NCBI RefSeq assembly: GCF_024320785.1
Contig: NZ_JANDBC010000003.1
Span: 1 to 64,000, forward strand
Source of the DNA: Gracilimonas sediminicola
Lineage (GTDB): Bacteria > Bacteroidota > Rhodothermia > Balneolales > Balneolaceae
Direction of reading: 5' to 3'
Length of the DNA stretch: 64,000 nucleotides
This document shows, in pieces, positions 54,412-57,008 of the stretch. Each line of letters starts with the position of its first letter. Position 1 is the stretch's first letter. A program made the translations under genes and the position numbers. The notes under the pieces are model-generated. The model was not told the DNA's origin. It searched no databases and saw only the letters and a program-made list of their open reading frames with translations.

Positions 54412-54454
54412 TGGTTAATTTTGGTTAGATATTTAAACAGAAAATACAGATTTG

Positions 54455-54799
54455 ATGGACGCATCCACAACGCCAACGGGCATTGAAGTTAGTAATAAAG
54501 ATCAGGTTCTGGAAATTTCCTGGGAAGATGGACATACCACTGTTTTTCCACTATATGGACTCCGAAAAAACTGCCCCTGCGTGATGTGCCGGGGTGGACA
54601 TGGAAGCATGGGAGACTTTGAGCCGGAAGCTTTTTTTGAAGAAAACCCTTCCCGCATCGAAATCCGGAACTTAGAACAGGTTGGGAATCATGCCATACAG
54701 ATTACCTGGGGAGACGGTCATAATTCCGGGATGTATCAATGGAAAACATTAAGATGGCTGGATCCCGAAAATCACCGGCCGGGTGACAACGAAGAGTAG
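54455..54799 (+). CDS. DUF971 (GBBH-like N-terminal) protein
   Basis: A 114-residue protein of the DUF971 family. 'WEDGHTTVFPLYGLRKNCPC' continues into 'VMCRGGHG', a Cys-rich zinc-site-like motif, and 'AIQITWGDGHNSGMYQW' follows. This domain also occurs at the N-terminus of gamma-butyrobetaine dioxygenases and near Fe-S assembly proteins; function is unknown. It converges with the Rieske oxygenase gene, whose unread extension ends 16 bp away. ATG at 54455 is used rather than the TTG before it. Confidence 0.88.
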   Translation: MDASTTPTGIEVSNKDQVLEISWEDGHTTVFPLYGLRKNCPCVMCRGGHGSMGDFEPEAFFEENPSRIEIRNLEQVGNHAIQITWGDGHNSGMYQWKTLRWLDPENHRPGDNEE

Positions 54800-54814: not shown

Positions 54815-54913
54815 CTAAACCGCTTTCCTGAACTCTTTTTTGAGAAGGCTCTGAAAGTGATAAACTCCCTGTTCCCGTTTCACTGAAAATCGACCCTGAT
54901 CATAAGCGCTGGA
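54815..54913 (-). other. In-frame continuation of the Rieske oxygenase after a premature stop
   Basis: After TAA at 54914-54916 the same minus-strand frame stays open for 32 codons to a TAG at 54815-54817. It reads 'SSAYDQGRFSVKREQGVYHF' then 'QSLLKKEFRKAV'. This is the C-terminus expected of the ring-hydroxylating oxygenase family. The TAA therefore replaces a sense codon. Confidence 0.8.
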
Positions 54914-55912
54914 TTAAAGTCCGCGCTGCACGGCTTCGCAAATCTCAACATCCTCAAGCTGAATATCGTGGCTGTATGCAATGTCTTCATCGATAAGTCC
55001 CGATTCTTGCTTTGCCTGTACATTATCATAAAAATAGCTGAAGATGACTTTGCATTTTTTCGGTGATACCGGCACCACCTTGTTTATTTGTAACCGGCCG
55101 GGTAAAATGTTCAGCATCATATTGGGGAAGATGAAGTAGTAAAAAGCTTCACCGCCATCCTGAGAATACACACTTTCTTTGGCTTTAAAGGGACTGTGTT
55201 GCAGAGAATGCCACGTTTCCGTTTCCGTGACGTACGCTCGGTAGTCGAGCAGATTGGCGAGTTCAGGGTGCACAATCGGGATGTGATAACCTTCCAGGTA
55301 ATTATCTACATACACTTTCCAGTTGCATTCTACATCATAAATGTGCTCCGAATGAAATTGCAATGCTCCCAGGTTAATAGGGGCAATTCGTTCTTCAATC
55401 CCTGATAAAAGAGAAGAAAGCTTCGGTGTTTGGGGGTTTATTCTTGCAAATATAAGTCCCTGCCAGATTTTGATTTCTACAGCTTCAAGCCCGAAATCCT
55501 TTTTATCGAACAGTTCAACCAGGTTCCAGTCAGGAATTCCACGGAGTGAACCGTCATCCAGGTAGGTCCAGCCATGATATTGACACTGCAGTACGGTTTT
55601 GGTCCCTTTCTTTACGGCAAGCGGTCCGCCACGATGCTTGCACACATTGAAGAAAGCCTTGACCTCATGATCAGCGGTTCGCAAAACAATAACAGGGTTT
55701 TGGGCAATGTCGGTGGTATAGGAATCTCCGGGTTCCTGAATCCGGGCCTCGTGGCAAATAAATTGCCAGTGATTAGTAAAGAGATGATCCTGTTCAAAGT
55801 TGAAGAACTCTGGTTCATAGTACCATCGTGAGGGAATAGTCTTGGCTCTCTCAATGGATTCAATGTCCAGGTTTTCTTCACCAAATAGATTTTTACTGTT
55901 TTTTGCCATCAT
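54914..55912 (-). CDS. Rieske aromatic-ring-hydroxylating-type oxygenase alpha subunit, prematurely stopped
   Basis: A 332-residue Rieske non-haem iron oxygenase. The Rieske cluster ligands are Cys91-x-His93 ('NVCKHRGG') and Cys110-x-x-His113 ('QCQYHGW'); the mononuclear iron site has His210 and His215 ('EGYHIPIVH'), with the Asp probably in the 'DIQLEDVEI' helix. Homologues include choline monooxygenase and hydroxylating dioxygenases; the substrate is unknown. The stop TAA cuts the conserved C-terminus ('VQRGL' is normally followed by about 30 residues). The product may be less stable, may be read through, or the gene may be decaying. Divergent from the iron-binding protein gene. Confidence 0.85.
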   Translation of the reverse strand: MMAKNSKNLFGEENLDIESIERAKTIPSRWYYEPEFFNFEQDHLFTNHWQFICHEARIQEPGDSYTTDIAQNPVIVLRTADHEVKAFFNVCKHRGGPLAVKKGTKTVLQCQYHGWTYLDDGSLRGIPDWNLVELFDKKDFGLEAVEIKIWQGLIFARINPQTPKLSSLLSGIEERIAPINLGALQFHSEHIYDVECNWKVYVDNYLEGYHIPIVHPELANLLDYRAYVTETETWHSLQHSPFKAKESVYSQDGGEAFYYFIFPNMMLNILPGRLQINKVVPVSPKKCKVIFSYFYDNVQAKQESGLIDEDIAYSHDIQLEDVEICEAVQRGL

Positions 55913-55988
55913 CTGTTTAGAATAAATCTAAATAAAGGTTAATTTAGGGCTCATCAAATATATAACTACCAACAATAAAACCAATCTT

Positions 55989-57008
55989 ATGAAATCCACC
56001 ATTTTTTCTCTCGTTGCACTGGCAATGATTTTTGCTTCCTGTACGGGACAGGAAGAAGTAAATGTGTATTCAGCACGTCACTATGATACAGATCAGGCGT
56101 TGTATGAAGAATTTACAGAGCAAACCGGAATTGAAGTTAACCTGATTGAAGGTGGCTCAGACGAGCTTATTGAACGTGTGAAAAGTGAAGGAATTAACTC
56201 CCCTGCAGATATTCTCATCACCGTTGATGCCGGCCGACTTTGGAGAGCTGAAGAAGCAGATATTCTTCAACCGTTTGAATCTGAAACTCTGGAAGAGCGC
56301 ATTCCATCTTCTTTCCGTCATCCTGATGGACTTTGGGTAGGTCTTTCCAAGCGCGTGCGTGGACTCGTGGTTAATCCCGATGCCGTGGAAAACCATGAAG
56401 AACTGACCTACGAAGATTTAGCCGATCCAAGATTTGAAGGCCGTGTATGTATTCGATCTTCCAATAACATCTACAATCAGTCGCTGGTTGCTTCTATGAT
56501 CGAAACCATGGGTGCAGAAGCTACTGAAGAATGGGCCGAAGGACTGGTATCTAATTTTGCGCGGGATCCCCAGGGTGGAGACAGAGATCAAATCAGAGGA
56601 GTTGCTGCCGGTGTATGTGATGTAGCGGTTGCTAATCACTATTACCTTGCCGTAATGATTACCGGCGATGACGAAGCAGACCTCGAAGCGGCTTCCAAGG
56701 TTGAATTTGTATTTCCTAACCAAGGAGAAGATGGGCGTGGAGCTCACGTGAATATCAGCGGTGCCGGTATCCTGAAAAATGCACCAAACAAAGATAATGC
56801 GATTAAATTTCTGGAATACCTGACCACAACGGAAGCTCAGAAATATTATATCGGCGGAAACAACGAATATCCCATCAACGAGAATGCAGAGATTGCTGAC
56901 GTTCTTAAGGAATTCGGGGAATTTAAAAGCGATGCGGTAAATGTATCCGCTTTAGGAAGAAACAACCCGGAAGCCATCCAAATTATGGACCGGGCCGGCT
57001 GGAAATAG
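55989..57008 (+). CDS. Iron(III)-type ABC transporter substrate-binding lipoprotein
   Basis: A 339-residue periplasmic binding protein of the FbpA/FutA class. A lipoprotein signal peptide ends in 'FASC' (lipidated Cys). 'VNVYSARHYDTDQALYEEFT' opens the mature domain, and 'NHYYLAVM' supplies the Tyr pair that binds Fe(III) in this class. 'GRGAHVNISGAGI' and 'EYPIN' are also typical. The permease gene lies downstream on the opposite strand; no ATPase gene is seen. Confidence 0.92.
   Translation: MKSTIFSLVALAMIFASCTGQEEVNVYSARHYDTDQALYEEFTEQTGIEVNLIEGGSDELIERVKSEGINSPADILITVDAGRLWRAEEADILQPFESETLEERIPSSFRHPDGLWVGLSKRVRGLVVNPDAVENHEELTYEDLADPRFEGRVCIRSSNNIYNQSLVASMIETMGAEATEEWAEGLVSNFARDPQGGDRDQIRGVAAGVCDVAVANHYYLAVMITGDDEADLEAASKVEFVFPNQGEDGRGAHVNISGAGILKNAPNKDNAIKFLEYLTTTEAQKYYIGGNNEYPINENAEIADVLKEFGEFKSDAVNVSALGRNNPEAIQIMDRAGWK

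Follow-up and report, generated by a model that had tools for sequence, protein, structure and literature searches.

Gracilimonas sediminicola, a member of the Balneolaceae, carries a gene for the alpha subunit of a Rieske non-haem iron oxygenase, to which the carnitine monooxygenase CntA is the closest relative of solved structure. The reading frame of this gene is interrupted by a TAA at codon 333. The gene is probably a recent nonsense allele of this CntA-like oxygenase and a very young pseudogene, with the exact ancestral codon presumed from the nearest relatives and the loss of activity from the loss of a conserved tail. In outline, a single base change in this lineage would have converted codon 333, which is CAA or AAA in the nearest relatives, to TAA. 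Ribosomes would stop there and release a 332-residue protein without the conserved C-terminal loop and terminal helix. The truncated product would be unstable or inactive, and the gene would not yet have decayed any further. The following features are found in the window, which is the whole stretch of 64,000 nucleotides that was analysed:

54815..54817, minus strand: TAG closing the read-through frame, codon 366 (CAG in the sister genome G007, TAG in the related genome G005)
54818..54913, minus strand: 32 orphaned sense codons for the family C-terminal loop and terminal helix, from the alignment and the model
54914..54916, minus strand: in-frame TAA, codon 333 (AAA in G007, CAA in G005)
54917..55912, minus strand: Rieske oxygenase alpha-subunit ORF, 332 aa, from the ORF list, Pfam and the alignment
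55913..55988, no strand: intergenic region between the oxygenase gene and a divergent gene; the upstream 80 bp are identical to G007

The oxygenase frame opens with an ATG at 55912 on the minus strand and runs through 332 sense codons to the TAA, the ORF with its stop extending from 55912 to 54914. The stop is a late one, within the final tenth of the gene. The 32 in-frame sense codons beyond it encode SSAYDQGRFSVKREQGVYHFQSLLKKEFRKAV, of which the peptide EQGVYHFQSLLK forms a part. A preliminary description of this DNA had reported the TAA at 54914-54916 and the 32-codon continuation, and the ORF calls confirm both with all coordinates exact. At the far end of the read-through frame, G007 has CAG in place of the TAG and its protein is three residues longer. 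As G005 has TAG at the same index, it may be G007 that lost its terminal stop. The 3′ end of the oxygenase gene is faced by a gene for a GBBH-like_N (PF06155) protein on the plus strand (54452-54799), and its upstream region is shared with a divergent gene for an extracellular solute-binding protein (SBP_bac_6), also on the plus strand (55989-57008). A non-systematic look at the adjoining genes identified no oxygenase-reductase partner beside the oxygenase gene.

Both domains expected of a Rieske non-haem iron oxygenase alpha subunit are present. The Rieske domain (PF00355) covers residues 48-129 and scores 65.9 bits in Pfam against a cut-off of 20.3, while the ring-hydroxylating catalytic domain (PF00848) covers residues 183-332 of the ORF as it stands, with 97.1 bits against a cut-off of 24.9. 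The Rieske ligands C91, H93, C110 and H113 (Cys-X-His ... Cys-X2-His) are invariant in the alignment, as are the residues of the 2-His-1-carboxylate iron site, H210, H215 and D321, the last of which aligns to the Asp in CntA's “PEDLNLVESVQRGL” segment. The family also has a complete C-terminal part of the catalytic domain. Here the ORF stops at residue 332 and the remainder sits behind the TAA, and for this reason the gene is filed as a disrupted rather than an intact family member. If the frame is continued past the TAA, PF00848 scores 119.9 bits instead of 97.1, and the end of the match moves from residue 332 to residue 355.

Relatives were gathered by searching 58 genomes and scanning genome contigs, and the closest named ones are Balneolaceae. 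The homologous gene was extracted from 49 loci; at least two pairs among these (L011/L032 and L013/L055) seem to be a single gene represented twice. Codon 333 is a sense codon in all 49 (CAA, CAG, AAA, GAA, GAG, CGC, GCC and others), and a homologous tail follows it in every case, in relatives that range from the sister (96% protein identity) to below 30%. Together with the gain in PF00848 score, this bears out the earlier claim that the extension has the character of the family C-terminus. Homologues that end naturally at “VQRGL”, named in the preliminary description as the counter-evidence to look for, were sought among the 49 relatives and none was found. The tail is not a product of chance, since the sister genome shares it, with identity at all 31 residues compared. 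An alignment of 43 proteins contains 31 invariant columns, and five of these (S334, Y337, G340, R341 and E347) lie behind the stop.

The sister genome G007 shares approximately 95% nucleotide identity over the region and carries an intact gene with AAA at codon 333. In G005 this codon is CAA, and CAA or CAG is found in many relatives. A single substitution from CAA, GAA or a similar codon had been proposed for the origin of the stop, and both CAA → TAA (a transition) and AAA → TAA are indeed changes of one base. There is thus an intact sister orthologue with a sense codon one substitution away. Recent nonsense mutation, one of four explanations put forward at the outset, is supported by the CAA, AAA and CAG codons of the relatives and by the sense codon in all of them.

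The age of the stop can be judged from the pattern of substitution. Over the body of the gene, i.e., the 332 codons before the stop, comparison with G007 gives a dN of 0.0206 and a dS of 0.178, a dN/dS of approximately 0.12. Over the 31 tail codons compared there are three synonymous and no nonsynonymous differences (dN 0, dS 0.172). When the body changes are assigned to branches with G005 as the outgroup, six nonsynonymous and 12 synonymous changes fall on this genome's branch and eight and 15, respectively, on that of G007; no excess of nonsynonymous change is seen on this genome's branch. Purifying selection acted on the gene into the recent past, and secondary decay is absent. The stop looks recent because the dN/dS of the body is low, the tail changes are synonymous only and the upstream 80 bp are identical. 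A conserved tail and a low dN/dS fit a recent mutation, and they fit a base-call error or readthrough equally well. The family is patchily distributed in the genus, with five of ten genomes carrying the oxygenase at one locus each, and no second oxygenase copy that might compensate was found in this genome. The gene is apparently dispensable.

The part removed by the stop was placed in a structural model, predicted by AlphaFold2 from the alignment, the TAA being treated as a residue. The model has a mean pLDDT of 89.2 and a pTM of 0.88, and the blocks covering the tail have a pLDDT of 91-97. A long helix, residues 306-333 in the model, carries D321, and the TAA occupies its last position. What the stop removes is a 14-residue loop (334-347) and the terminal helix (348-364), and the model is highly confident in both. 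All ligands of the Rieske centre and of the His-His-Asp iron site lie upstream and are kept in the 332-residue product. Foldseek and VIA-align superpose the model on CntA (6y9c) with a Z of 39.6 and an rmsd of 2.0 Å over 348 aligned residues at 26% identity. This alignment spans model residues 8-362, and since it reaches residue 362, solved enzymes possess the C-terminal part. In the CntA trimer, electrons cross between neighbouring subunits, and mutation of the bridging glutamate abolishes activity (PMC7948474). A correctly formed subunit interface is therefore needed for activity. The C-terminus is not mentioned in that paper (PMC7948474), according to a text search. Judged by the conserved elements that it lacks, the 332-residue protein probably folds poorly or is inactive.

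Two explanations would leave the gene functional under an ordinary reading of the code. An error of sequencing or assembly, with a sense codon really present at 54914-54916, is unlikely, though it would look like what is seen here, a one-base difference in an otherwise intact and constrained gene. The assembly is of good quality, with a genome of 3.57 Mb in six contigs and 97.4% completeness, and substitution errors are less usual than insertions and deletions in polished assemblies. Across the 251 shared genes there are only five frameshift-like differences, most of them at 5′ ends that had been set mechanically; widespread sequencing damage was rejected on this count. It is somewhat less likely again that the allele is shortened and functional, the 332-residue protein still working. 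The position of the Rieske Cys and His ligands and of H210, H215 and D321 ahead of the stop would allow for this, as would the absence of relaxed selection on this genome's branch. However, not one of the 49 relatives ends at this point, and the protein would have to work without five invariant columns and without the terminal helix, which the model shows with confidence and the solved enzymes have.

The remaining explanations require the TAA to be decoded. Programmed or leaky readthrough would make some full-length enzyme and keep the tail under selection, and this is very unlikely. In its favour, the chance that three tail differences from the sister would all be synonymous is approximately 0.01 under random substitution, although a stop that postdates those changes would be expected to leave just this pattern. 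A case has also been made that prokaryotes often read through in-frame stops (PMC7918605). Against it, none of the 49 relatives shares the stop, which is thus not conserved across species, and no stimulatory RNA structure is apparent, the folding downstream of the TAA being not above that of shuffled sequences (z = +0.53). Programmed readthrough, which had been listed among the options, consequently gains no specific support. TAA followed by U is, moreover, regarded as a strong terminator in bacteria. A related proposal, that the TAA is tolerated with a useful full-length oxygenase made by readthrough and the stop acting as a short-lived down-regulation switch, is slightly more doubtful still; in-frame stops have been proposed as such switches in general terms (PMC7918605). 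Reassignment of TAA to an amino acid in this organism has a negligible probability, with nothing beyond the open frame itself to suggest it. TAA is the commonest stop, ending 194 of the 340 ORFs called mechanically in 400 kb of the genome, and two class I release-factor genes are present. An ARAGORN reading of 39 tRNA genes revealed none with a stop-codon anticodon, and a suppressor tRNA was rejected on this basis; the taa, tag and tga anticodons that were seen are those of normal Leu(TTA), Leu(CTA) and Ser(TCA) tRNAs. In the first look at tRNAs, 150 of 242 candidates were scored, and a degenerate tRNA could escape such a screen. A comparison of 400 kb with the sister genome gave no general excess of TAA-interrupted genes. 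Stop usage, release factors and tRNAs all contradict the suggestion that the stop is recoded, and the checks proposed for it turned up no stop-decoding tRNA among the 39 and no general excess of TAA-interrupted genes in the 400 kb. For recoding, this genome gives a clean negative.

A recent nonsense mutation can also be set against the rate at which such differences arise in the two sister genomes. The screen covered 400 kb from this genome and as much from G007, with approximately 250 shared ORFs, and left out early stops within the first 22 codons (positions 5-22), which are artefacts of choosing the most upstream start. Late-interrupted ORFs in this genome number about two to three per approximately 250 shared, the Rieske oxygenase gene included; another is a 231-codon ORF with TAG at codon 224. 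Outside the window, at approximately 291937 of G000 contig C3 (L132), there is, as the third case, a TGA at codon 888 of 976 where G007 has TTA, and the conserved frame of that gene continues behind its TGA. G007 has two late or internal stops of its own, at codon 45 of 178 and at codon 637 of 674. The latter is a TAA at 206085 of the 400-kb stretch of contig C1, and this genome has the corresponding gene intact. As both genomes carry such stops, that of the Rieske gene is one of several ordinary nonsense differences. Taken alone, the case is of small importance, a new nonsense allele in an oxygenase gene that is patchily distributed and apparently dispensable. It nonetheless cautions that an automated annotation could record the gene as an intact 332-aa Rieske oxygenase despite the missing conserved end.

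Among known systems, CntA (PDB 6y9c, 6y9d and 6zgp) resembles this protein in its fold and metal-site motifs, and the same “ED...E.VQRGL.S” run surrounds the stop position in both. CntA has the C-terminal part, whereas this copy ends at residue 332, and identity between the two is approximately 26%. The best NCBIfam match is to glycine betaine monooxygenase GbcA (NF058607, E 4e-39). The score of 134 bits, or 149 when read through, is far under the cut-off of 670, so the protein is not called GbcA and is assigned to neither the CntA nor the GbcA equivalog. As regards the mutation, a survey has found in-frame stops to be widespread among bacterial genes and, for the most part, short-lived (PMC7918605). 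The present gene is like the young bacterial pseudogenes described there (Belinky et al. 2021, PMC7918605) in its single-base stop, its constrained sequence, the intact copy in its sister and the few mismatches around the stop. The survey concentrated on stops common to at least two species, whereas the stop described here comes from one genome of the species.
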